From Bacteroidota bacterium (GTDB lineage Bacteria > Bacteroidota > Bacteroidia > Flavobacteriales_D > Crocinitomicaceae), in assembly GCA_024280155.1 (NCBI GenBank), contig JAJRQQ010000096.1, positions 19,168 to 83,167 on the forward strand: 64,000 nucleotides of DNA. The letters run 5' to 3'. Shown here piece after piece: positions 932-62,148 of this stretch (position 1 is the first letter of the stretch; every line of letters starts with the position of its first letter). Position numbers and translations under genes: made by a program. The notes beneath the pieces are model-generated. The model was given only the letters and a program-made list of their open reading frames with translations, was not told where the DNA came from and ran no database searches.

Positions 932-2134
932 ATGGCAACGTATAAAAGGAAAATTAAGGTATTGCGTATCATCAATCGATTTAACATTGGTGGTCCAACC
1001 TATAATGCAACCTTTTTAACGGCTTTTTTAGGAGATGATTTTGAAACAATGCTCGTTGGTGGAATGCCTGAAGAAGGAGAATCTGATTCTTTGTATATTC
1101 TTGAGAAATATAATGTTACTCCATTTTTAATGAAAGAAATGGTACGTAAGCCAAGTTTAAAAAATGACAAGGCAGCTTATCGAAAGATTAAAGATATTAT
1201 CGAAGAATTTAAGCCGGACATTGTTCATACTCATGCATCTAAAGCAGGTGCATTAGGACGAAAAGCGGCTAAATCTTGTGGTGTCCCAATTATTTTGCAT
1301 ACATTTCATGGACACGTTTTTCATTCTTATTTTGGGAGAGTAAAAACGGCCATTTTTAAGCAGATAGAGAAATTTTTAGCCAGGAAATCAGATGTTATTG
1401 TTGCTATTTCAGATATACAAAAAGAAGAATTAACCAAAACCCACAAAATTTGTTCTCCTGAAAAGGTAAAAGTGATTCCTCTAGGATTTGATTTAAAAGT
1501 GTTTAAGGAGAAGAAAGAAAGTGAACGTAAGCGTGTTAGAGCTTATTATGGCATTGAAGATGATGAAGTTGCTGTAGCAATTATTGGTCGTTTAGCCCCT
1601 GTAAAAAATCATCATCTTTTTCTTGAAGTGATAGATGACGTTCTTCAAAAAACATCGAAGAAAGTGAAATGTTATATTGTTGGTGACGGAACTGAGCGAG
1701 AGGATATTGAAGAAAAAGTAAATAAAATCAATCAGAAGTATAATCATGTGATACAAATGACGTCTTGGATAAAAGATGTGGCAAGTTTTAATGCAGGAAT
1801 GGATGTGATTTGTTTGACATCTAAAAATGAAGGAACTCCAGTTAGTTTGATTGAAGCTCAAGCGTCCGGTGTCCCTGTTGTAACAACTGATGTTGGTGGT
1901 GTTAGAGATGTTGTTTTGGAAGGTGAAACAGGTTTTGTTGTAGCGAGAAATAATAAAGAAAAATTCGCTAAAAAATTACTCGAACTCGTTGAGAATGAAA
2001 AAGAACGAGAAAAAATGTCACAAAATGGATGGAATCACGTAGAAGAGAAATTCCATTATACAACTTTGGTTAAAAATATGACTAATTTGTATCATGATTT
2101 AATAGAATTGAAAAAAAATGAATTGGATTTATAG
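932..2134 (+). CDS. Glycosyltransferase family 4 (GT-B fold)
   Basis: Probably transfers a nucleotide-activated sugar to a lipid-linked acceptor during exopolysaccharide or O-antigen-like polymer synthesis on the cytoplasmic face of the membrane. The N-terminus 'VLRIINRFNIGGPTYNATFL' is the donor-independent GT4 domain with its glycine loop. 'IVHTHASKAGALGRKAAK' and 'IGRLAPVKNHHLF' follow, and the C-terminal EX7E-type motif is 'SKNEGTPVSLIEAQASGVPVV'. 400 aa is normal length for the family. It overlaps the next gene (wza-like) by 17 bases, indicating one operon with the export machinery. Sugar specificity cannot be read from the sequence. Confidence 0.88.
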   Translation: MATYKRKIKVLRIINRFNIGGPTYNATFLTAFLGDDFETMLVGGMPEEGESDSLYILEKYNVTPFLMKEMVRKPSLKNDKAAYRKIKDIIEEFKPDIVHTHASKAGALGRKAAKSCGVPIILHTFHGHVFHSYFGRVKTAIFKQIEKFLARKSDVIVAISDIQKEELTKTHKICSPEKVKVIPLGFDLKVFKEKKESERKRVRAYYGIEDDEVAVAIIGRLAPVKNHHLFLEVIDDVLQKTSKKVKCYIVGDGTEREDIEEKVNKINQKYNHVIQMTSWIKDVASFNAGMDVICLTSKNEGTPVSLIEAQASGVPVVTTDVGGVRDVVLEGETGFVVARNNKEKFAKKLLELVENEKEREKMSQNGWNHVEEKFHYTTLVKNMTNLYHDLIELKKNELDL

Positions 2135-2891
2135 AATACTATTTTTATTATCGTTTGCTTCAACTTTACTGTTTCAAAGTTGTGGTATAAACAGTAACTT
2201 AATGTTTAAACAAGCAAAAGGGGAGGAAAACAATGATTCTATTCCTTTAAGACCTGCAGAAGCATATCGCATATCTCCAGATGATAAAATTACGTTCACT
2301 TTATCAACAAATAATGGTTCTGATATCATTGAAGGAGTTACAGGGATTTCAGATGACTCAAAAAGACAAACGAAGGCAACTACAGAATATTTAGTTCGAA
2401 GAAATGGAGAAGTTGAACTGCCTGTTTTAGGAATTGTTCATGTGACAGGATTAACAGTTGAGGAATGTGAGGATACATTGATTCATTTATTCTCTTCAGA
2501 ATATCAAAAACCATACGTTCAAGTTAAAATAACCAATCAAAGAGTGATTGTTTTTCCAGGAAATGGTTCTGATGCAACTGTCGTTCAGCTAAAAAACTCG
2601 AATACAACTTTGATGGAGGCATTGGCTTTAGCTGGGGGCATAACTGACAGAGGGAAAGCAAATACAGTGAAACTGATGCGAAAGGTGAATGGAACTCGTC
2701 AAGTTTATGTTATTGATTTGTCCACAATTGAAGGATTAAAATATGTGGACATGATTGTTCAGGCAAATGATTATATTTACGTTGAACCAACACCTGAAAT
2801 TGCAAAGGAAATAGCACAAGATGTTGTTCCAATTGTTTCTCTTTTGTCGAGTGCAATTGTTATTTTTACAGCCATTAATTTTTTGAAATAA
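2118..2891 (+). CDS. Wza-like outer-membrane polysaccharide export lipoprotein
   Basis: Forms the outer-membrane exit channel for the polymer made by this operon. It has a lipoprotein signal with lipobox 'LLFQSC' (lipidated Cys22). A Poly_export domain follows at about residues 50-140 ('YRISPDDKITFTLS', 'RNGEVELPVLGIVHVTGLT'). An SLBB-like beta-grasp segment comes next ('TTLMEALALAGGITDRGKAN'). The hydrophobic C-terminal helix at about 237-256 corresponds to the membrane-spanning helix of Wza. At 257 aa it is shorter than E. coli Wza (about 380 aa), as is common in Bacteroidota, where one SLBB repeat is usual. It overlaps the GT upstream and is followed one base later by the Wzc-like kinase. 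Confidence 0.88.
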   Translation: MNWIYRILFLLSFASTLLFQSCGINSNLMFKQAKGEENNDSIPLRPAEAYRISPDDKITFTLSTNNGSDIIEGVTGISDDSKRQTKATTEYLVRRNGEVELPVLGIVHVTGLTVEECEDTLIHLFSSEYQKPYVQVKITNQRVIVFPGNGSDATVVQLKNSNTTLMEALALAGGITDRGKANTVKLMRKVNGTRQVYVIDLSTIEGLKYVDMIVQANDYIYVEPTPEIAKEIAQDVVPIVSLLSSAIVIFTAINFLK

Positions 2892-2892
2892 A

Positions 2893-5304
2893 TTGAGTAA
2901 TAAAAGTCTTTTCATAAATAAAACGTATGATCCTCTCATTCTGAGAACGATTCTAAAAAGGTATTGGTGGTGGCCATTCTCTTTTGTTTTACTGTTTAGT
3001 TTTCTTGCATTTTTCTACCTGAGATACACTAAACCAGTGTATGAGTCTTCGATGGTTTTACAACTTTCTGATAAAGATAATGCGAAAGAAATTCTTGATT
3101 TTGAGAACATGAATTCACGAGATAATCAACTTTCAAGTGTCACTGAGTTATTGCGCTCTGAGTTACTTTTTCAGCGTGCTATAAAGAGCATGAAAATGAA
3201 TATCAGTATGTATTCTCGTGGAAAGGTGTTAACAGAAGAACTTTATTTGAAGAGTAATTTTTATGTTCAACCATACGAATTAAGTGATTCTTCCATTATT
3301 GGAAAAGAAATTAATTTCCAATTTAAAGGAGAGGATGTTACTTTAACCTACGAACATGGAGGGAAACAAAAGGAGTTATCAGGCAAAGTCAATAGTCATT
3401 TAAAGAATGAAGATTTTGATGTTGTCTTGAAAGTTGTTGATAAAAAAGGATTCAAAGAGACCACGCATGAAAATGAATTGTTTTTTGTGTTTAACAGTAT
3501 TCAATCGGTGACAGATCGATTGAAAGATGGGTTAAAAGTAATGCCCTTAGATGTCAATGCAAAGACAATCTCGATTTCTTTTAGAGGGTATAATCCTCAA
3601 TTATGTCGTGATGTTACTTTGGCAATTTCAAACGCATTTATTTCTTTCGATGAAGAAAATCAGCGAAAAGGTTCTGAAAATATTTTAAATTTCATTAATG
3701 TTCAGTTGGATTCTCTTTCGATGGAATTGAAAGCTTCTCAAGATAGTTTAATGTTGTTTCAAAGAGTACAAAATTTACCTGATCCTGAATCAGCAAATCT
3801 TGAATTTAATGAAAATGTCAATAAACTTCAAGATCAATTGTATACGCTCGAAGAAGAATTAAATTCTTTGGAAAGTGTACATAGAATGCTAGCCAAAAAT
3901 CCGGACAGATTAGAAGTGTATCGACTTTTACCCGAAATGTTAGGTAAAAGCTACGAAGAATCTTTGGTGAAAAGAATTGAAGAACTACATCTTTTGTTGG
4001 AACGAAAAGAAGATTTATTGTACAAAGTAACCGAAGACAATTCTGAAATTAAACTTTTGAATAATAAAATTCAAGCAAAGATTAATTCGATTCAGATGAG
4101 TATTGCTGCAATTGAAAATCGTTTGACACAAAATGCTTCTGTAATTAAAACAAAAATTAATGCTTACCAGAATAAAATATTTGAATTACCAGAAAAGAAA
4201 ATGGAGTTCAACCGCTTAAAAAATATTCAAGATTTAAATGACAAATATTTCACATTACTAACTGAAAAGAAAGTGCTTTATGCAATTTCCGATGCTGGTT
4301 ATGCTTCTTCAAATAGAGTGTTGAGTCAACCAAAAGTATCTGGTGTACCTGTTGAACCAAGTCGTAAGTTTATTTACAGCACATTTATCTTATTTGGTGT
4401 TGTGATTGGTTTAGGAGTAATGTTTCTAAAATATTTGATGTTCAATGAAATCAATATGATTGAGGATTTAGAAAGCATTTTACCTCCTCAAGCTTCAATT
4501 TTGGGTGGAATTCCATTGTTCAAATACAATATGGAGTTCTCAAAATTAATTGTTGCAGAAGCACCGAAGTCATCCATGGCAGAATCCATGCGTAAGATTC
4601 GAACGAACTTGAGCTATATCAATCCAGATTATAAAACGATTGCCATTTCTTCTTCGATTTCCGGAGAAGGTAAAACATTCGTGGCATTGAATTTAGCTGG
4701 AATTATTGCGATGTCAGGTAAGAAAACGGTGCTATTGGATTTAGATTTACGTACACCGAAAATTCACCTCGGAATGAATGTGGATAATATCAATGGGATG
4801 AGTTCATTGATTGTTGGGCAAAGTAAAATGGAGGATTGTATTCACAATATGGGAATTGATAATCTAGATTTTATTACCGCAGGTCCAACACCACCAAATC
4901 CTTCTGAATTATTATTGAGTCAACGATTTAAAGACATTATTGAAGAATTAAAATCGATGTACGATGTAGTGATTATTGACAACCCTCCGGTAGGATTAGT
5001 TTCGGATGGTGTGAGAAATTTAACGGATGCGGATATTCCTATTTATGTCTTTAAATCACATTATTCTAAACGTAATTTTGCTAATCGTGTCAAAGAGTTA
5101 TTTGAGGTGCAGCAATTAAAATCGTTGAATGTTATTCTAAATGGATTACAACTGTCTAAATCTTCTGCGTATGGCTATGGCTATGGCTATGGTTATGGGG
5201 ATTACGGAAATGGGTATATGGAGGATGACACCAAAGTTTTCAAAGAAGCTGCAAAACAAGCGAAATGGTACCGAAAAATCTTTAAAAAGAATGGAAATAA
5301 ATAA
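2893..5304 (+). CDS. Wzc-like polysaccharide co-polymerase with BY-type tyrosine kinase domain
   Basis: Inner-membrane protein that controls chain length and export by cycles of autophosphorylation. It has a first membrane helix at about residues 25-50, a long coiled-coil Wzz/GNVR region to about 470, and a second helix at about 485-510 after the proline-rich 'SGVPVEPSRKFIYS'. The cytoplasmic kinase has Walker A 'SISGEGKTFVALN' (about 588-600), Walker A' 'VLLDLDLRTPK' and Walker B 'VVIIDNPP'. The tail carries a tyrosine cluster (YGYGYGYGYGDYGNGY, about 757-772), the usual autophosphorylation site. The start is TTG at 2893, one base after the Wza stop; no better ATG exists. The tyrosine cluster is encoded by a tatggc hexanucleotide repeat, which can change length only in frame. 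Confidence 0.9.
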   Translation: MSNKSLFINKTYDPLILRTILKRYWWWPFSFVLLFSFLAFFYLRYTKPVYESSMVLQLSDKDNAKEILDFENMNSRDNQLSSVTELLRSELLFQRAIKSMKMNISMYSRGKVLTEELYLKSNFYVQPYELSDSSIIGKEINFQFKGEDVTLTYEHGGKQKELSGKVNSHLKNEDFDVVLKVVDKKGFKETTHENELFFVFNSIQSVTDRLKDGLKVMPLDVNAKTISISFRGYNPQLCRDVTLAISNAFISFDEENQRKGSENILNFINVQLDSLSMELKASQDSLMLFQRVQNLPDPESANLEFNENVNKLQDQLYTLEEELNSLESVHRMLAKNPDRLEVYRLLPEMLGKSYEESLVKRIEELHLLLERKEDLLYKVTEDNSEIKLLNNKIQAKINSIQMSIAAIENRLTQNASVIKTKINAYQNKIFELPEKKMEFNRLKNIQDLNDKYFTLLTEKKVLYAISDAGYASSNRVLSQPKVSGVPVEPSRKFIYSTFILFGVVIGLGVMFLKYLMFNEINMIEDLESILPPQASILGGIPLFKYNMEFSKLIVAEAPKSSMAESMRKIRTNLSYINPDYKTIAISSSISGEGKTFVALNLAGIIAMSGKKTVLLDLDLRTPKIHLGMNVDNINGMSSLIVGQSKMEDCIHNMGIDNLDFITAGPTPPNPSELLLSQRFKDIIEELKSMYDVVIIDNPPVGLVSDGVRNLTDADIPIYVFKSHYSKRNFANRVKELFEVQQLKSLNVILNGLQLSKSSAYGYGYGYGYGDYGNGYMEDDTKVFKEAAKQAKWYRKIFKKNGNK

Positions 5305-5836
5305 AACCGAAATAGAAGGATTACTCATTTTTACTCCTCGAAAATTTGAAGATGATAGAGGGTATTTCTTTGAAAGTTTTAATCAATCTATTTTTGATGA
5401 GGCTACAAACAATAAATTCTCTTTTGTGCAGGACAATCAATCGTTTTCAAAAAAAGGAGTTTTAAGAGGGCTGCATTTTCAAAACCCGCCATTTGCTCAA
5501 GGGAAATTGGTACGTGTAATCAAAGGTGCTGTTCTAGATGTTGCTGTAGATATTCGTAAAGATTCTAAAACGTATGGAAAGTATGTGAGTATTGAGTTGT
5601 CTGAAGAGAACAACAAACAATTTTGGATTCCTCCTGGATTTGCTCATGGTTTTATTACCTTAGAAGATGATACGATTTTTTCATATAAATGCACCAACTA
5701 TTATGCTCCTCAAAGTGAAGGTACAATACTTTGGAGTGACATTGATTTAAACATTGATTGGAAATTGAAACCAATATTTGTGAGTGATAAAGATGAAATT
5801 GGGACAGAATTCTGTAACTTCGCAACTCAATTTTAA
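5291..5836 (+). CDS. rfbC: dTDP-4-dehydrorhamnose 3,5-epimerase
   Basis: Cupin-fold epimerase of the dTDP-L-rhamnose pathway (RmlC). It converts dTDP-4-keto-6-deoxyglucose to the L-lyxo isomer in the cytoplasm. The catalytic His is seen in 'LRGLHFQNPPFAQGKLVRV' (about His62), with 'GAVLDVAVDIRKDSKTYGKY' and 'WIPPGFAHGFITLED' completing the family signature. I choose the ATG at 5291 rather than the track start at 5141 because it gives the standard start 'MEINKTEIEGLLIFTPRKFED' and the normal length of 181 aa. It overlaps the kinase gene by 14 bases. rmlA, rmlB and rmlD are not in the window and must lie elsewhere. Confidence 0.9.
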   Translation: MEINKTEIEGLLIFTPRKFEDDRGYFFESFNQSIFDEATNNKFSFVQDNQSFSKKGVLRGLHFQNPPFAQGKLVRVIKGAVLDVAVDIRKDSKTYGKYVSIELSEENNKQFWIPPGFAHGFITLEDDTIFSYKCTNYYAPQSEGTILWSDIDLNIDWKLKPIFVSDKDEIGTEFCNFATQF

Positions 5837-5843
5837 ACTACTC

Positions 5844-6928
5844 GTGGAAATTAAACTTTTTCAAATACTTGGCTTTCTGCTCGGAGGTGCTGTTGTTGCG
5901 TATAGCATTAATGTTTTATTATTACGATTTTCTCGTTCTTTAGGAATTCGTAATAAAAATGATGTGACAGTAAGATGGAGCCAAGAATCGAAACCTTCTT
6001 TAGGTGGAATTAGCTTCTTTATTGTATTTGTCTTTTCTGCAATTGCATACATGATTGTATTCAGCGATGCACCCAATATTTTTCAGAACAAACAATTTGT
6101 AGGTTTATTTGTCGCAGGTTCTTTGGCTTTTTTAATGGGATTAGCTGATGATGCCTATAATACACGTCCGTTGATTAAACTTGTTGTGCAAATTTTATGT
6201 GGAGTATTATTTGTTCTAACGGATACAACAATTGATTTCTTTCATATTTGGTATTTAGATGATATATTGACTATTTTCTGGGTAATACTTATTATGAATT
6301 CATTGAATATGCTGGACAACATGGATGGAATAACAGGAACAACTGTTTTTTTTATATTGATTACCTGCTTATTCTCTGCTTGGATTGTTCTTCCATTCAA
6401 TGCCAATATTTGGGTACTTGTTTTGGTCTCTGTAATTGGGGCTGTTCTCGGTTTTCTAAAAATGAATTTACATCCATCACGCTTGTTTATGGGTGATGCA
6501 GGTTCACAGTTTATCGGGCTTTTCGTTGCTTTTTTGGGATAAAATATCTTTGGAATATTGGGGTTGCTAATCCGTTGGCAGAGCATCCTTCGTGGCTCGG
6601 AATGATGGTTGTTTTTGTAGCTTTTACTCCTGCAGCAGTTGATACTGTAACAGTTGTGATTAATCGACTAAAAATTGGACAATCTCCTATGGTTGGAGGG
6701 AAAGACCATACGACTCATCATTTGGTTTATGCAGGTCTGAGTGATTTTAAAGTTTGGCTCGTGTTTTTATTAATAGGCTTTCTTTCTTCTTTATTTGCTT
6801 TGGCAATGATTAATTTAATCACGTTAGAAACCTATTATCCTGTGCCATTTTTTGTGATTTATTCAATCTTTGTGTTTGTTTTATTGTATAAAAACACCAT
6901 CAAATATAAAGCACCTACTCAAAATTAA
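5844..6928 (+). pseudogene. Undecaprenyl-phosphate glycosyl-1-phosphate transferase (WecA/MraY superfamily), frameshifted
   Basis: Polytopic enzyme that starts polymer synthesis by moving a HexNAc-1-phosphate to undecaprenyl phosphate. The first part holds 'GGISFFIVFVFSA', 'GLADDAYNTRP' (Asp-rich motif), 'NMLDNMDGITG' and 'FMGDAGSQFIGL', all superfamily hallmarks. It stops at 6540-6542. The remainder, including the substrate-binding 'GGKDHTTHHLVYAGL', continues in another frame to 6928. Inserting one T in the T6 run at 6530-6535 restores one protein of about 361 aa. Start: GTG 5844, eight bases after rfbC; an ATG at 5793 inside rfbC is the alternative. The break is a sequencing error, a true mutation, or (least likely) programmed slippage. 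Confidence 0.8.
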
Positions 6929-6930
6929 TT

Positions 6931-8124
6931 TTATTCTTCTCTCTTTTTACTTCTGAAATAAATCAGTAACAAACCTACTAAGATTATTGCACTTGCCCCT
7001 AGAAGAGTCGTGTCATAATAAGGAATAGAGATTGAAAAATGTGAAAAAGCAATTCCTTGTGCAAATAATAATACCTCAGAAGAAATAAATCCGAGAAAAT
7101 AGAAAATCACCCCTAATTTATCCAATTGTATTTTTAAAATTGTTGAGAATAAGACAAAAATCATTGGGCTTAAAAAACCTAAAGTAAATAAGTGTATATA
7201 ACCGATAATGTAATTTGCTTTGAAACGGATGACATGCTCAAATAAATCGGGGAAGATGCTAAAAAACTGAAGCAATACTTTTATCGTAAACGCTGAAAAA
7301 GCAAAAATTAAGATAAATCGAACTTGCTTTCTGAGTTGTGTGGAGAACGTTTTTTGTGTGATTTTTAAAAGGTAGAAGAGAGAAATGACTTGTAAAATGG
7401 CTGATAAAATGGCAACAAATTGGATGCCCCAATGATTTTCACTCCAAAGTAAAGATAAGCTATAACCTAAAATACAAGAAACTGTTGTGAGGGTGTAAAA
7501 AGGAGTTAGCAATTTCAAAGAATCTTTGTTTAGTTTCTTCGAAATGTATCGGAAGAAAATCCCGAACAGTGTACAAATAAAAAAGCCATTGTATAAAAAA
7601 TGTAGATAGAAATAAATGGTATTGTGATACAACTCATGTTTTCCAAATTTTGCTACGATAATTCCGACCATCCAAATTGCAAGACTGGATAAGAAATAGA
7701 ATAAAATTCCTGTTTTTATAAAGAGAGAAGGAATACTTCGATTGTTTTTTATTTCTTTTAGAGTTGAAATGAGGTAAAAGTAACTCGTCAATAGGAAAAT
7801 GGATAAAAACAAGATGGAAAAGAAATGGTATCCTTGAATAGGAAAGCTGATGAGTAATCCAAATAAGGAAAAAACCATGATTTTGAAAAACCATTTGAGC
7901 TTTTGAGATTCATTTAACTTTTTAGGGAAATATTCTTGAGCAATTAAACTTATAACAGCTAAGAAACCCCAACCTAAGAAAGCAACATGTGAATGTCCTT
8001 CGAGAATGTTCTTGTAATTAAAAGGTATAAAATCTACGTGTTTATAGATCCGTAAAGTCAACCCATAGAATGCGGAAAGAATAAAAAATATTCGGGCAAT
8101 CTTTATTTGTTGTTGAATACGCAT
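6931..8124 (-). CDS. Polytopic membrane protein, haem-copper-oxidase-subunit-I-like, linked to nor genes
   Basis: About twelve hydrophobic helices across 397 aa. Histidines sit where haem-copper oxidase subunit I and NnrS-like proteins carry haem or metal ligands: 'ILEGHSHVAFLGW' (His44, His46), 'FYLHFLYNGFFICTLFG' and 'IIGYIHLFTLGFLSPMIF'. The full CuB/FeB ligand set (HH pair plus Glu) is not visible, so I do not call it an oxidase. It is divergent from norC across a 140-base promoter region and converges with the WecA gene, ending two bases away. Its position implies a role in NO response, for example haem handling or NO protection, but this is inference. Many Bacteroidota nor loci carry such a gene. 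Confidence 0.6.
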   Translation of the reverse strand: MRIQQQIKIARIFFILSAFYGLTLRIYKHVDFIPFNYKNILEGHSHVAFLGWGFLAVISLIAQEYFPKKLNESQKLKWFFKIMVFSLFGLLISFPIQGYHFFSILFLSIFLLTSYFYLISTLKEIKNNRSIPSLFIKTGILFYFLSSLAIWMVGIIVAKFGKHELYHNTIYFYLHFLYNGFFICTLFGIFFRYISKKLNKDSLKLLTPFYTLTTVSCILGYSLSLLWSENHWGIQFVAILSAILQVISLFYLLKITQKTFSTQLRKQVRFILIFAFSAFTIKVLLQFFSIFPDLFEHVIRFKANYIIGYIHLFTLGFLSPMIFVLFSTILKIQLDKLGVIFYFLGFISSEVLLFAQGIAFSHFSISIPYYDTTLLGASAIILVGLLLIYFRSKKREE

Positions 8125-8185
8125 TTCATTTTTTTAAATGACAGAGTCAAAGGTAATCGTTTTATAACAATTATCAATCAATAAA

Positions 8186-8229
8186 CTGATGTATGTCATA
8201 TAAAAGGATGATACGTGGTTGTATATTTG
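8186..8229 (+). promoter_or_regulatory. Candidate nor promoter: Crp/Fnr-type dyad plus Bacteroidota -7 box
   Basis: The dyad CTGAT-GTAT-GTCAT (8186-8199) has the TGA-N6-TCA core of Crp/Fnr-family sites, including the DNR/NnrR type that answers NO. Downstream, TATATTTG (8222-8229) matches the Bacteroidota -7 consensus TAnnTTTG. No TTTG -33 box lies at the expected spacing. If transcription starts about seven bases after the box, the dyad centre is near -43, which is the class II activator position. The norC ATG follows at 8265. This is a pattern match only. Confidence 0.5.
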
Positions 8230-8264
8230 TCAAATAAATTAATACGAATTAAAAACGACAAAAT

Positions 8265-8708
8265 ATGCTATCGAAAAAACAAGCTCGAGCATTCTTTCTC
8301 GGAGGAACAGTAGTCACCTTTTTAATATTTATTGGGTTGACTGTTTATTCTTTAGGGGAAGCTCAGGATCAAACAAATATCGAAAACATGACAGAATCTG
8401 TTGTCAGAGGTAAAGTTATTTGGGAACAAAACAACTGTATGGGATGTCATACCTTACTTGGTGAGGGTGGTTATTACGCTCCAGAGTTAACAAAGGTTTA
8501 TGACAGGAAAGGTGCTAATTACATCAAAACTGTGGTAATGTCTAAGACACCTTGGGCGCCAAACGGACGTCAAATGGTAGATTATGCTATGTCTGAGGAC
8601 GAAGCAAATGATGTTGTTGAGTTTTTCAAATGGATTGGTGAAATAGACCTTAATGGATTTGAAACAGTTGTTTCGCCTCTTGCTGAAACAGATAATGAGT
8701 TAGAATAA
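8265..8708 (+). CDS. norC: Nitric oxide reductase cytochrome c subunit
   Basis: Membrane-anchored c-type cytochrome that passes electrons to NorB for reduction of 2 NO to N2O. It has one N-terminal helix (about residues 11-30) and a periplasmic domain with a single haem c site, 'NNCMGCHTLLGEGGYYAPEL' (Cys58, Cys61, His62). The 'MGCHTLLGEG(G/A)Y' run is diagnostic for NorC. The likely axial methionine lies in 'PNGRQMVDY' or near it. 147 aa is normal. It is first in the operon, directly downstream of the candidate Crp/Fnr-type promoter, with norB beginning 16 bases later. Confidence 0.93.
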   Translation: MLSKKQARAFFLGGTVVTFLIFIGLTVYSLGEAQDQTNIENMTESVVRGKVIWEQNNCMGCHTLLGEGGYYAPELTKVYDRKGANYIKTVVMSKTPWAPNGRQMVDYAMSEDEANDVVEFFKWIGEIDLNGFETVVSPLAETDNELE

Positions 8709-55430: not shown

Positions 55431-58400
55431 TTAATGTTTCATTTTAGCTTTATCAAACTGATAATCTTTAAACTTTACCTTAAATAGTATTGCATAAACT
55501 ACCGGAACGTATAGTAAAATAATTATTGTACCAAAGGTAAGCCCGAAAATAATAGCCAAAGACAAAGGCTGCCACAACAAACCACCGCTAATTAACAAAG
55601 GCAACATTCCTAACGAGGTGGTAAGCGTAGTTAATATTACTGGGCGGAATTTATGATTCGCTGCTTTCATAATTGCATCTTGTTCTGAGAGTTCCGGGTT
55701 CTCTTCTTTTTCTCCAGCAATACGATCAATTAAAATAATTGCGTTGTTTATTACAATACCTGCTAAGGCAATAATACCTAATATACCAAAGAAACTAACA
55801 AATGTACCGCCAATATACCAACCTATAACCACACCAATTACGCCAAGCGGTATGGTAGAATAGACAATGAGTGATTTTCTAATCGAGTTAAACTGCAACA
55901 CCAAAAGGATTAAAATGATGCCGAACGAAAGAGGTAACCAATCTACAATTGCGCCAAGGTTGTCGTTTTTGTCTTCATCTTCGCCACCAAACTCATATTG
56001 GTAATCACTTTTCCATGTAGTTTTTTGCTCTTCTAACCAAGGAGTAATGTCTGTAAAAATATCTTTGGCGGTATATCCTGTTTGTAGATAACTTCCAACG
56101 GTCATAGTGCGGGTTAAATCTTTACGGATAATTTTTGCGAACTGCCAATCAACCACAATTTTGGCAACTTGCGAAAGTGGTACGTTTTGGCGTGTAATGG
56201 GCGAGAAAATATTAAAACTTTCAATGGTTTGAATATCATACTCATTGCTGTTTTTAACCTTCATGTAAATGGGAATGCTTTTATCTTCTTCCCTGAAATT
56301 ATCAACTTTAACACCCGACAAGCCTGCATTTAGAGCCATTGCAATATCTTTGTTAGTAAGTCCTTCGCGTTGTGCTCTATCTTCATCTATTTCCACAATC
56401 AGTTTTTTGATTTTTGGTCCCCAGTTATCGGTAATATTTTGGGTGCCTTTTGTTTTTACCAATTGTTCTTTAATTGCTTTTGAAATAAGTGCCAACTCTT
56501 CGGGGCTTTTACCCGAAACTCGAATTTCGACAGGTGTACCCGATGCACCTGCACCAGTTAACCGGTTTACACGAATATCGGCATCGGGGAAATTGTCGAA
56601 ACAATATTTGTCTAGCTTGGCAATTACATAATCATTATCTCTATCGCCTGTGGTGTTCAGAAGCATGTGTGCATAGCTCGAAATTGCTTCATTTTTAAAA
56701 TATCCTAAATCGTAAGGTTCGGGACCTTCGCCAATAAATGATGAGAAATCCAGAACGCCGGGGGTGTTGTCTTGTGTAACAACTAGCGAGTCCAAAATAT
56801 ATTTTTCAATATCGGCTATAGCCGATTCGGTAATATCAATTTGTGTACCTGAAGGAAATATCACATCTACAGTTACCAGGTTTCGGTCGCTATCAGGCAC
56901 AAGTTTAAACGGAAGAAAAGGCATTAAAATAATTGACAGGGCAAACATTACGAAAATAATAATAACAAAAGGGATTTGTGCCTTGCTCAATATACGGAGT
57001 AAAATTTTATTGTACCAGATGTTAATATTGTTCATCATTCTGTCAACAAACCCCTCTTTTTCTTTCTTATTCTTTTTTGCTTTTATCATTAGCAAAGCCA
57101 GTAAAGGAACAAATGTAAAGGTTAAAAACCATGAGCTTAACAGCGATATGGAAACCACGGAGAACAGTGGTGATGCCATTTCACCCATTGGGGTTTCGGC
57201 TAACGCGAAAGATAAAAATGCCGCCGAAGTCGTAAGCGTGGAAATCAACAGAGGAATCATCAGTATCTTACAGGCATCAACAGCAGCTTTAAATGTAGGT
57301 TCTCCTTTTTGTACACGCACAAGAATTTGCTCAGCCATTACAATCCCGTTATCTACAAATAATCCTAAGGAGATAATTAATGCGGCAAGCGATACTTTGT
57401 TAAGTCCCAAATCAATTAAATTCATAAAAAAGAAGGTGCTTAAAATTACCATCGGCACAAGCGTGGCAACCAACGAGCCCGTTCTGAAACCTAGAAAAAA
57501 TAACATCACGGCAAGTACAATTAGTACCGATTGCAACAAACTGATTAAGAAATTATTTACCTGCATATCCACAATCTTGTCTTGTGAGGCTATCCTAACT
57601 AGTTCAACACCAATCGGTAGTGTTTTATTTATTTCGGGAATTATTTTTTCTATATCATCGCCCAAGCGGACAATATTTGCCCCCTTTTTTAGCGAAATAA
57701 ATAGTGAAATTGCATCCTTCCCGTTAATTTTTACAATTTTGTCCTTCGGGTGGATATAATCCTGATAAATATTGGTTATATCACCAAGAAAAATGGTTGT
57801 ACCTGTTCCAGTTGGTATCAGCGTCCGTTTTAAGTCTTCAATACTTTCATAACTCCCTGTTGGTTCAAGGATTATTCGTTTTTTACCTACATTTACTTCG
57901 CCACCGGGGTAAAGAATATTTGTTGCAGAAATAATACCTGTCAAACGGCCAACATTTAATTTGTAGCGTGAAAGTTGCTGGTCGTCGAACTCAATAATAA
58001 TGCGCTCTTCCTGCACGCCACCGTACTTTACTTTGGCGGCATCGGGTAAAAGCAATAGTTTGTTCCTTATGTCCTTGGCATAATCTTCCAAAACATTGTA
58101 GGGAACTCCATCGCTTTCAACACCTAAAATAATCCCAAAAACAGTTCCTATGTCCTTGTCTTTAACAATAGGGCCCATAATGTTTTTCGGAAGCATTGGG
58201 CGCACTTCGTTTACTTTATCTTTAAGCTCATCCCAAATAGGTTGCAGCTGGTCTGCGTTAACGTAATCTTTTAGCTTTACTGTAATTACAGATAAACCTG
58301 TTCTTGATTCGCTTTCAATACTTTTCACTTCAACCATTTCCCGAATTGCTTCTTCCAGTTTTTCGGTTACCAACGACTCAACCTCTTTGGGCGAAGCACC

Positions 58401-58556
58401 CGGGAAACGAGTAACCACAGAAGCTATCCGGATGGTATAGGGTGGCATACTATCTCTGGAAAGGTCAAAATAGTTACTAATACCTACTGCGCTGATAATT
58501 AGCAGAGTAATTATTGCTATCCGGCTGTTTTTGAGTGTTATTTCTGTTAAATTCAT
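55431..58556 (-). CDS. RND-family efflux permease (AcrB/MdtB-like)
   Basis: Inner-membrane proton-driven pump of 1041 aa with the expected order: TM1 'LTEITLKNSRIAIITLLIIS', two large periplasmic loops, and TM2-6 and TM8-12 clusters. TM4 reads 'SLGLFVDNGIVMAEQIL', where AcrB has two adjacent Asp (D407/D408); here there is one Asp followed by Asn. TM10 has 'GIVINNAIILIDRI' where AcrB has a Lys. So the relay differs from classical drug pumps, and substrate cannot be assigned. It is last in an operon tolC-hlyD-RND on the minus strand; a 127-base tail region follows with only a 21-codon frame of doubtful value (55339-55404). Confidence 0.92.
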   Translation of the reverse strand: MNLTEITLKNSRIAIITLLIISAVGISNYFDLSRDSMPPYTIRIASVVTRFPGASPKEVESLVTEKLEEAIREMVEVKSIESESRTGLSVITVKLKDYVNADQLQPIWDELKDKVNEVRPMLPKNIMGPIVKDKDIGTVFGIILGVESDGVPYNVLEDYAKDIRNKLLLLPDAAKVKYGGVQEERIIIEFDDQQLSRYKLNVGRLTGIISATNILYPGGEVNVGKKRIILEPTGSYESIEDLKRTLIPTGTGTTIFLGDITNIYQDYIHPKDKIVKINGKDAISLFISLKKGANIVRLGDDIEKIIPEINKTLPIGVELVRIASQDKIVDMQVNNFLISLLQSVLIVLAVMLFFLGFRTGSLVATLVPMVILSTFFFMNLIDLGLNKVSLAALIISLGLFVDNGIVMAEQILVRVQKGEPTFKAAVDACKILMIPLLISTLTTSAAFLSFALAETPMGEMASPLFSVVSISLLSSWFLTFTFVPLLALLMIKAKKNKKEKEGFVDRMMNNINIWYNKILLRILSKAQIPFVIIIFVMFALSIILMPFLPFKLVPDSDRNLVTVDVIFPSGTQIDITESAIADIEKYILDSLVVTQDNTPGVLDFSSFIGEGPEPYDLGYFKNEAISSYAHMLLNTTGDRDNDYVIAKLDKYCFDNFPDADIRVNRLTGAGASGTPVEIRVSGKSPEELALISKAIKEQLVKTKGTQNITDNWGPKIKKLIVEIDEDRAQREGLTNKDIAMALNAGLSGVKVDNFREEDKSIPIYMKVKNSNEYDIQTIESFNIFSPITRQNVPLSQVAKIVVDWQFAKIIRKDLTRTMTVGSYLQTGYTAKDIFTDITPWLEEQKTTWKSDYQYEFGGEDEDKNDNLGAIVDWLPLSFGIILILLVLQFNSIRKSLIVYSTIPLGVIGVVIGWYIGGTFVSFFGILGIIALAGIVINNAIILIDRIAGEKEENPELSEQDAIMKAANHKFRPVILTTLTTSLGMLPLLISGGLLWQPLSLAIIFGLTFGTIIILLYVPVVYAILFKVKFKDYQFDKAKMKH

Positions 58557-58597: not shown

Positions 58598-59677
58598 CTA
58601 CTGTGCTAGTAACCTTACTTTTCTACCATCGTACATAAAACTTAAACCGGCAGTGATAATTGTATCATCGGTACTCAATCCTTCATTTATTTTATAACCT
58701 GTTGCTGTTAGTTCACCAAGGCTAACATTTTTACGTTTGGCGATATAAACACCTTCCTCGTCACTGATTTTTATTATGTAAACAAAATCGCCGTCTTGAT
58801 CGTGTGCCACAGCATCTGATGGGATAATCAGGTCTTGGTTTGCATTTTCTTCTTGTGCAAAAACCATTTCAATGGTACAAGCCATTCCTGCTAGTATATC
58901 GTCATTTTTGTCTGTAAGGTCAATAATTAATGGGTATGTAGATGCACCACCCGTACTACGGCCAATTTCTGAAACTACGCCTTTAAAAATTTTATCGGAA
59001 ATAGTCGCAAATTTTATACTTACTATTTGCCCAATTTCTACACTTTTTATAATGTTTTCGGGAACTTGTGTCCTAATTTCGGTTTTTCCATTTGAAGAAA
59101 ACATTAAAACAGGCCGTCCCGCACCAATCATCTCGTTTTCTTTCGCTATTATTTTTGAAATAGAACCATCAAAAGGTGCGATTAATTTGGTGTAGTTTAA
59201 TTGGTTGCGTGCGCTGCTTAATTGAGATTGAGCTGTTTTAAGCATTGCTTTTGCCGACTCGTATTGTGCCTTTACTTTTTCAAAATCACTTAAGGAAGCA
59301 TTATTGTTGGCGTACAACTTTTCTATACGGTTGAATGCTAATTTTGCACTCGAGACTTGTATTTCAGCGTTCTTTTTTGAAGCCTCTACCTTTTGGTAGT
59401 TAATACGATAATCATCGCTGTTTACCTGAGCTATAATCTTGTCTTTTTTTACATGTTCACCCAATTTAAAATGTATTATTTCAAGTGTACCGCCTACCTT
59501 AAAACTTAATTTTACCTCGTTCTCAGCTTGTGATATTCCTGCAAAAGTCCGTTTCCCAGCTATCGCTGATTCACTGATTTTCTGATAAAAAACGGGGCGT
59601 ATTGCTTCCGTACTTTCTTCGTTGCTGCCACATGATACAATAAAAAGTGACAAAATTATTCCAATGTAAAATTTCAT
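58598..59677 (-). CDS. RND efflux periplasmic adaptor (membrane fusion protein)
   Basis: Links the inner-membrane pump to TolC. Lipoprotein signal 'ILSLFIVSCGSNEE' (Cys16). Lipoyl/beta-barrel half motifs: 'LSFKVGGTLEIIHFKLGEHV', 'QVNSDDYRINYQK', hairpin helices about 85-160 ('SLSDFEKVKAQYESAKAMLK'), return strand 'YTKLIAPFDGSISKIIAKEN', then a beta barrel and membrane-proximal domain ('IPSDAVAHDQDGDFVYIIKI'). 359 aa is normal. It lies 41 bases upstream of the permease start. Confidence 0.92.
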   Translation of the reverse strand: MKFYIGIILSLFIVSCGSNEESTEAIRPVFYQKISESAIAGKRTFAGISQAENEVKLSFKVGGTLEIIHFKLGEHVKKDKIIAQVNSDDYRINYQKVEASKKNAEIQVSSAKLAFNRIEKLYANNNASLSDFEKVKAQYESAKAMLKTAQSQLSSARNQLNYTKLIAPFDGSISKIIAKENEMIGAGRPVLMFSSNGKTEIRTQVPENIIKSVEIGQIVSIKFATISDKIFKGVVSEIGRSTGGASTYPLIIDLTDKNDDILAGMACTIEMVFAQEENANQDLIIPSDAVAHDQDGDFVYIIKISDEEGVYIAKRKNVSLGELTATGYKINEGLSTDDTIITAGLSFMYDGRKVRLLAQ

Positions 59678-59791: not shown

Positions 59792-62148
59792 TTAACGATG
59801 TTCTACTTTTAGTAAAAATTCTTGTAATTTATTTGTATAAGCCTTTTGCTCATCTTCTGAACTCAGAAAAATAAACTTTCCTTGAAGACGCTGAACCTGA
59901 ATAAAATCCATAATGTATTGATAGTAAGCAATATCAGCCATAAGTTTTGTTCGTGTCATAATGTTCTGTGCGTCGATTAATTGAATTAAATTAACTGCAC
60001 CTTGAAAATAAGCATCTTGTACCAATTTAAAATTATTTTCGGCAGCTGTTGCTGCATTTTTCGATAATTCCAATTCTAAATACGAAGTCCTTAATTTCTG
60101 TACATTCGTACGCACACCTGTTTCCAAAGTGTTGTTCAGCTCTTCTTTCTGATAGTTTATTTTATCCATTTCAATTACCGATTTATTCATCTCAGCATTG
60201 GCTTTTCCACCTTGAAATATTGGAATTTTTAAACTAATACCCAAATTATAAGTCATGTCATCGGGGGGCGGCGGAACCGGCATATTTGGTGGTAGAATTG
60301 TGCCTTCACGGATAAATGCCTGATCAGCGCTTCCCATTAGTGCAATTTCGGGAATATACCATTGTCGTTTATATAGTGTGTTTTTCCGTTCAATTACCCT
60401 GGCTATAGCCATCAACTGTTTAATTTCAGGTGAATTTGTTTTCATTTCCTCAATAATGAACGAGGCATATTTTTCGGTCAAAATCGGATTTTCAAATATC
60501 TTCGTTAGCAATTCCTGATTAAGTAAAATGGTTTTGTCAATTGAATTTGAATCGGGTACATTTATACTGTTGTCTATGGTACTGTTAAGCTGCTGGTTTA
60601 TTTGATACATATTTGTTCGGAACACGGTATATGCATCGTTGAATTTTATTTTATTAATGTTTAACTCGCTTGTCCAGCGGTTTACATCAGAAATACCACT
60701 TTGTCCAGCTTCTTCTTTTGCTTTTGCCATTTGAAGGTTTTGCATGGTGGCATTGATGTTCTCACTCTGGATCAATAAATTACACTTTGAAAATAGAAGG
60801 CGTATATATGCACCCGACATGTTTGCCACAATATCTAGTACGGTTTGTTCGTCGTAAAAGCGTTTGTTGTCTGCAAGCAGTTTATTGATAGCAATATTTG
60901 CATAAACTGATTCGGAAAAAATAACTTGTTTTAAAGAAGCCGAACCGATTAAGGTAAATGCGCCCCTTTGTCCCATTGCTGCTTCAACCAAGTTGTTGCT
61001 TAACCAAACAGTACTTCCGCCAACGCTTATTTGTGGCATAAGGTTCGATTTAGCAATCCTTACATTTTTTTCGGCGATTTCAATATCTTTTTGGCCATTT
61101 TTCCTTGCAGGTTGTTTTCAAGAGCCTCGGCAATAGCTAGTCTCAAGTTCAGTTCTTTTCCAGTTGGAAAATTGGTAGCATTGATTAAAATAGATTCATT
61201 TAATATGTTCCATTTCGGGAATTTATTCGTTGACCGGATACTTTCCATATTTATAATAGGTACTCGCCGTGCATTTTCAATAGATACTGGAATATCTGAA
61301 GGGTTTGTACCTTCACTAATTTTCATAATCCGCAAAGCAACCTGGCGTGCCAGTTGCTGAAAAGTAAATTCTGGGCTTAGTGTTACCGTTGCTCCCATGT
61401 TTAAATAAGCCACACCACTTACTGCAAGCGATGGGATGTGTCGCTTGTTTAGACCGTTAAACAACTTCAATATTTCCGTTTTAGAAAGCCCGACTAAAGG
61501 TAACACCATTGCAGCATCGGTATTTTTAGGCATTTGTGCTAAAGCAGAGCTGCTACTATCGTCAACAGAAACAACAGAAATATTAAATTTTGTATTGTTC
61601 TGTTTCAAATATTCGGTAAGCTGCGGAAAATTTTCATTTAATGCTTTAGGTATGAGAATAGCAAGTTCTTTTGCTTCAAACATTTGAGAAAACTCATGGA
61701 TGTCTGTTTTTAGTTGTATGATTGATTCAATAAAGGTAAAATTATCGATTCCGGTAGCGTTTCCTTGTTTTAATTGAAGGTTTTGAAAATCCTGGTCGAG
61801 TATATTTGCGGCAATAACCGGTTTTGAAAAATTTTTAAAACCAGATATATCGTTCGAAGATATATAACCTAAAGTTACTAATAAGGTAACATCCGGGTCG
61901 GCCATTAACTGTTGGTTATTTTGTATGACTCTGGCTCTCTCCCAATCTGCATCTAGATCTTTAAAATTCACCTTGAATTGTGATTTGGTCAGCGCAACAA
62001 TTTCTTCTTTCAGGTAGGTGTTAAATTCGTTAAATTCTGCTGAATTTGCATCTTTGCTAATGCCTATAGTAATTTCAGGTTGTGTTTGAGCGATTATATT
62101 TGTTGACATCAACAAAGTACTCATTAAAAGTATTGTATAGTATTTCAT
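59792..62148 (-). pseudogene. ABC-type substrate-binding domain fused to TolC-like outer-membrane factor, one-base frameshift at the junction
   Basis: The first track ORF (61060-62148) has a signal peptide ('LLMSTLLMSTNIIAQ') and a two-lobed ABC_sub_bind-like domain ('LLVTLGYISSNDISGFKNF', 'LAILIPKALNENFPQLTEY', 'PSLAVSGVAYLNMGATVTLS'). It ends with 'LNLRLAIAEALENNLQGK', which is already the start of a TolC fold. The second (59792-61039) continues TolC ('MPQISVGGSTVWLSNNLVEA', 'LSKNAATAAENNFKLVQDAY'). One more base in the T5 run at 61098-61102 (+ strand) joins them as '..NNLQGKNGQKDIEIAEKN..'. The result is about 785 aa in one protein: binding domain plus outer-membrane channel. Proline-rich 'PPNMPVPPPPDDMTY' lies in the TolC part. 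First in the RND operon. Confidence 0.75.

Follow-up and report, generated by a model that had tools for sequence, protein, structure and literature searches.

Outer membrane channels of the TolC/OprM family (PF02321) are built from two OEP repeats, serve as channel subunits and are encoded in operons together with an adaptor and an RND permease. They are usually seen as passive ducts that are opened by the adaptor. MexJK and TriABC of Pseudomonas use OpmH as their partner, and we know of no case in which their operons bring along a channel fused to a substrate-binding domain. An accessory component of the channel is known from E. coli, where the lipoprotein YbjP binds TolC in a 3:3 complex at the equatorial belt (PMC13082787, PMC13095208). 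Cells that had lost YbjP showed no efflux phenotype when examined under standard conditions (PMC13082787). The substrate-binding proteins of family PF04392 (ABC_sub_bind) with the structures 3lkv, 3lft and 6hni, i. e. VC_1101, TrpX and CD0873, bind Phe, Trp and Tyr (PMC6816091).

In the window, i. e. the whole stretch of 64,000 nucleotides that was analysed, these two protein families meet in one gene. An ORF for a domain derived from an ABC substrate-binding protein (PF04392, ABC_sub_bind; hereafter SBD) and an ORF for a TolC-type channel lie head to tail on the minus strand, followed by the genes of an adaptor and an RND permease:

62089-62148, minus strand: probable type I signal peptide, residues 1-20, without lipobox cysteine (predicted from the sequence)
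61060-62148, minus strand: ORF of signal peptide and SBD, 362 aa; its 3' end leaves the frame past the break
61234-62067, minus strand: SBD, residues 28-305 (ABC_sub_bind match by Pfam; profile-profile match over 280 columns)
61150-61182, minus strand: linker of about 11 residues from the SBD to the first TolC helix (alignment of the 16 intact fusions)
61088-61102, minus strand: single-base frame break; homologues are intact at this site (alignment)
59792-61039, minus strand: ORF of the TolC-type outer membrane factor with two OEP repeats, 415 aa; the frame is open upstream to the break
58598-59677, minus strand: periplasmic adaptor (RND_mfp), 359 aa, with lipoprotein-like signal (TIGR01730, 241.8 bits; cut-off 94.9)
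55431-58556, minus strand: RND permease (1041 aa) whose nearest relatives of solved structure are MexK and TriC

Compared with TolC/OprM, the fusion carries about 330 extra residues between the signal peptide and the first helix.

One gene split by a single-base frame break

The N-terminal ORF matched ABC_sub_bind with 41.2 bits (Pfam cut-off 25.9; profile positions 6-275 of 293) and the C-terminal ORF matched OEP with 108.2 bits (E 5.8e-31) in two stretches, i. e. with both repeats. A match of the N-terminal ORF to prok_STING (E 0.042) was below the cut-off and was disregarded. Upstream of its ATG the C-terminal frame stays open and encodes the first TolC helix.

An intact relative of 789 aa, 69-79% identical to the window fusion, is encoded in the Bacteroidetes MAG Dive100_bin4.30 (L005). 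The whole gene is colinear with L005 over 2.36 kb at 73% nucleotide identity, and the only internal indel is one base. It maps to about 61093-61094, next to the T-run 61088-61092, with a second T-run, 61098-61102, a few bases away; this position was placed from one relative, and both candidate sites adjoin T-runs. The sequence-only reading of this locus had suspected a frame error, and the one-base break is indeed present in the sequence; that reading had placed it at 61098-61102. On either side of the break, purifying selection acts on the codons (dN 0.20 and 0.13; synonymous sites are saturated). Colinearity and restrained nonsynonymous change indicate a coding capacity for one chain, now or until recently. 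The two ORFs are parts of one gene.

Taken literally, the window sequence has two separate genes, one for a binding protein and one for a TolC subunit. This is extremely improbable: in each of the sixteen relatives the fusion is a single ORF, the N-terminal ORF ends out of frame in a gene with no other internal indel relative to L005, and the C-terminal ORF would begin within the first TolC helix and lack a signal peptide. Given the purifying selection on both flanks, the break is either a recent mutation or an assembly error. As the genome is a draft of 114 contigs with a completeness of 88.8%, both are equally likely. A programmed frameshift was also considered; it is not needed, because the relatives carry the fusion in a single frame.

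Distribution and single origin of the fusion

Sixteen intact fusions of 723-891 aa were found, 13 of them in Bacteroidota, the phylum in which the sequence-only reading had proposed to look, one in Campylobacterota and two in Fusobacteriota. Their PF02321 scores range from 135 to 182 bits. Besides L005, the fusion occurs with 795 aa in two genomes from the same genus as the window and with 805-891 aa in three remoter Bacteroidota genomes. When 395 genomes of the class were searched with a profile, seven further cases of 772-798 aa were found. It is uncommon in this class (8 of the 395 genomes, the window's genome counted). Three fusions came from annotated plasmids: that of Sulfuricurvum kujiense, WP_041667226.1, is labelled ABC transporter substrate binding protein, and the two of Cetobacterium somerae are labelled TolC family protein.

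The N-domains of the Cetobacterium proteins are short and diverged and gave no Pfam match. With a profile of the Bacteroidota members they scored 24.9 and 4.2 bits, compared with 207 bits for Sulfuricurvum. The Cetobacterium proteins join the fused clade in both trees described below, and these N-domains are probably SBDs as well. The clade is spread over at least two phyla, probably three. The N-domains of several relatives score below the Pfam cut-off of ABC_sub_bind, and databases therefore list these proteins as plain 'TolC family'. By this drift under the threshold, fusions evade annotation.

The first tree contained 17 fused channels together with 20 unfused ones sampled from genomes that hold fusions. 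In it, all fused channel parts lie on one side of a branch with a support of 99/100; the unfused channels fall outside this clade. A second tree was built from 17 SBDs, 21 stand-alone binding proteins and seven kinase sensor domains. Here the SBDs form one clade (100/99), apart from the stand-alone binding proteins and the kinase sensors. The two trees are concordant in small subclades. When the window channel part was searched against 295 class genomes, matches in the window's own genome not being counted, two fused proteins matched with E values of 1e-70 and 2e-49, and one unfused frame followed only at 6e-13. Thus the clade is marked by the fusion. The close channel homologues in the class genomes are all fused, contrary to the possibility raised beforehand that the homologues might always be separate genes. 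The linker has a length of 8-12 residues in all 16 intact fusions.

With 16 intact copies, in which each domain forms a single supported clade, the fusion is far beyond chance. It is an old, conserved and overlooked variant of the TolC family and not the binding protein of an importer. In a literature search that covered few subscription journals, no report of the domain pair or of the fusion was found. The architecture thus appears to be undescribed, albeit present in databases under generic names.

Genes adjoining the fused channel

At 15 of the 16 loci, adaptor and RND permease genes directly follow the fused gene, and the RND operon recognised in the window by the sequence-only reading conforms to this arrangement. 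Among solved structures, the window RND permease is closest to MexK (E 5e-142) and TriC (6vej; E 2e-140), with MdtB next (E 2e-71). It thereby resembles the pumps of MexJK and TriABC; here, the operon begins with the gene of the fused channel. The gene neighbourhood indicates that the fused channel works with an adaptor and an inner membrane transporter. In the window, the fused channel, the adaptor and the MexK/TriC-like permease would together form a tripartite exporter.

The remaining locus is that of Sulfuricurvum, where the fused gene is followed by an adaptor, an RbbA-type ABC protein and an ABC-2 permease, with TetR regulators flanking. Since this operon encodes an ABC exporter, the SBD goes with the channel and not with one type of pump. 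Genes for an importer permease or ATPase were neither present in the operon of the window nor seen next to the fused genes.

In seven fusion operons a fourth gene comes after that of the RND permease; it encodes about 220 aa with an Ion_trans_2 pore motif (PF07885; checked in three). This gene is absent from the window operon and from L005. Its positions are:

L046: 13316-13969
L047: 8281-8931
L062: 13061-13750
L063: 13051-13689
L064: 13046-13657
L065: 13353-14021
L067: 14190-14807

A second type of fusion, with an RND permease and an OEP channel domain in one chain, was also encountered:

L105 (the window's genome, contig C108): 2265-5672, 1135 aa, copy ends at the contig end
L104 (G815): 3988-8346, 1452 aa

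Position and possible role of the binding-protein domain

Along its entire length the SBD matches 3lkv, 3lft and 6hni (E 4e-12 to 9e-9), and a profile-profile alignment with the stand-alone binding proteins covers 280 columns and both lobes. Unlike TrpX, CD0873 and VC_1101, it is not a lipoprotein, has no adjacent importer genes and is fused to a channel. The ligand contacts common to TrpX-type proteins (T108, A127, T129, D152 and N233 in TrpX numbering; PMC9382623) were mapped onto the alignment by residue spacing. The contact Thr is present in 20 of the 21 stand-alone proteins and in only one of 15 SBDs. The SBDs mostly have Gly at the position of A127 and a hydrophobic or aromatic residue at that of T129, whereas the position of N233 is variable. 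D152 is replaced by Asn in all 15. Four of the five contacts are thus not retained in these SBDs, and the Asp has become an invariant Asn, which makes it unlikely that the SBD binds aromatic amino acids in the known way. Possibly, it retains an altered ligand site, since one of the cleft loops, [ST]GxxN[FL][TS]Y, shows very high conservation; the others are variable. A comparison of the conservation of the cleft loops with that of the rest of the SBD gave p = 0.28 (controls 0.03-0.12), a test with low power even in stand-alone binding proteins. Structure models from alignments of two to three rows reached a pLDDT of 35 for the L005 protein and 44 for its N-domain; with the latter, a fold search returned single lobes of binding proteins at a TM of about 0.16. 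These models were too poor for interpretation and the fold match was disregarded; the position and the cleft of the SBD are accordingly derived by homology.

Sensor domains of histidine kinases also belong to PF04392 in Bacteroidota, and the generalisation of the sequence-only reading that ABC binding domains normally serve import is therefore too narrow. Like the SBD, these sensors are put to a use other than import, are placed N-terminally of another machine and lack the known ligand contacts. Unlike the SBD, they are on a separate branch of the tree and their output is a kinase, not a channel. They recur in this phylum (L036, L037, L040, L042-L045).

Where the SBD is attached can be deduced from TolC, in which a beta strand comes after the first helix. 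This helix spans from the equatorial to the membrane domain (PMC13082787). Going in this direction, its N-terminal end should be at the equatorial belt, on the outside of the duct, and so should the attachment point of the SBD. With a signal peptide, a two-lobed SBD, a short linker of near-fixed length and a TolC-type channel subunit in one chain, and with a channel which we infer to be trimeric, three SBDs, each joined to the first helix at its lower end, would form a ring outside. The linker would oblige them to remain close to the equatorial belt. YbjP on E. coli TolC is an analogous arrangement of three accessory domains round this belt, as far as the predicted position of the SBD is correct; YbjP is a separate lipoprotein, whereas the SBD is part of the channel chain. 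To our knowledge, the two are not related in sequence.

The best interpretation, to which we give about an even chance, is that the SBDs constitute a collar outside the trimeric channel which positions or opens the duct, with or without a ligand. The SBD would then be a repurposed domain with a part in placing, holding or opening the channel, perhaps triggered by a ligand in the periplasm that is not an aromatic amino acid. The SBD would neither feed a solute to an importer nor sit in the lumen. Such a collar explains the geometry, the indifference to the pump type, the lost ligand contacts and the maintained selection. As YbjP is dispensable under standard conditions, the collar may be dispensable, too.

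The main rival of the collar is a gate that senses a ligand: the SBD would close on a periplasmic small molecule, be it a substrate or a signal, and this motion, transmitted via the linker to the first helix and the equatorial belt, would favour opening of the channel or docking of the adaptor. All that is required is contained in the single chain with its short linker, the coiled coils of TolC pivot about the equatorial domain upon opening (PMC13095208), and both the kinase sensors of the same family and the nearly invariant cleft loop would be in line with sensing. Yet most of the known ligand contacts are lost and the remaining cleft loops vary, and we consider a gate of this kind rather doubtful. 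A ligand-gated exit duct of RND as well as ABC exporters, in which a periplasmic small molecule acts through the linker on the equatorial hinge of TolC and thereby opens the channel or permits the pump to assemble, seems unlikely.

RND pumps can draw substrate from the periplasm, and they load it at the permease close to the inner membrane. The SBD descends from a solute-binding protein and could in principle bind the exported compound in the periplasm and pass it to the pump, as had been suggested from the sequence with the capture placed in the exit duct. However, the N-terminus of TolC is outside the channel, the SBD would be on the outer membrane side, the canonical ligand residues are not kept and the same architecture serves an ABC exporter. 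Because RND pumps load near the inner membrane, substrate capture fits less well than a collar or a gate, and we regard it as improbable.

Alternatively, the SBD could be an inert or stabilising domain, an old fusion that is kept only as an aid to folding, outer membrane insertion or contact with the peptidoglycan. Its nonsynonymous rate is about 1.5-4 times that of the channel part, the cleft loops show no special conservation and the N-domains in Fusobacteriota are barely recognisable. In contrast, purifying selection on the SBD is clear, nine positions (E27, G72, P88, N114, A190, G230, R246, G258 and N278 in L005-domain numbering) are invariant across 15 diverse members, and loss of the domain was never seen among the close homologues in the class genomes. 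We regard an inert or stabilising domain as improbable.

If the SBD acts on the channel as a gate or a collar, it would give the exit duct an input of its own or represent a built-in form of the collar of E. coli TolC.

Two further observations were made in passing. Bacteroidota reading frames of 592-1271 aa (L007, L009, L016, L026) contain one to three ABC_sub_bind matches, some of them in tandem. At 2118-6542 the window holds the apparent start of an exopolysaccharide export and synthesis cluster with Wza-like, Wzc-like and RfbC-like proteins, as judged from the translations, and overlapping ORFs at 5141-5304 and 5784-5836.
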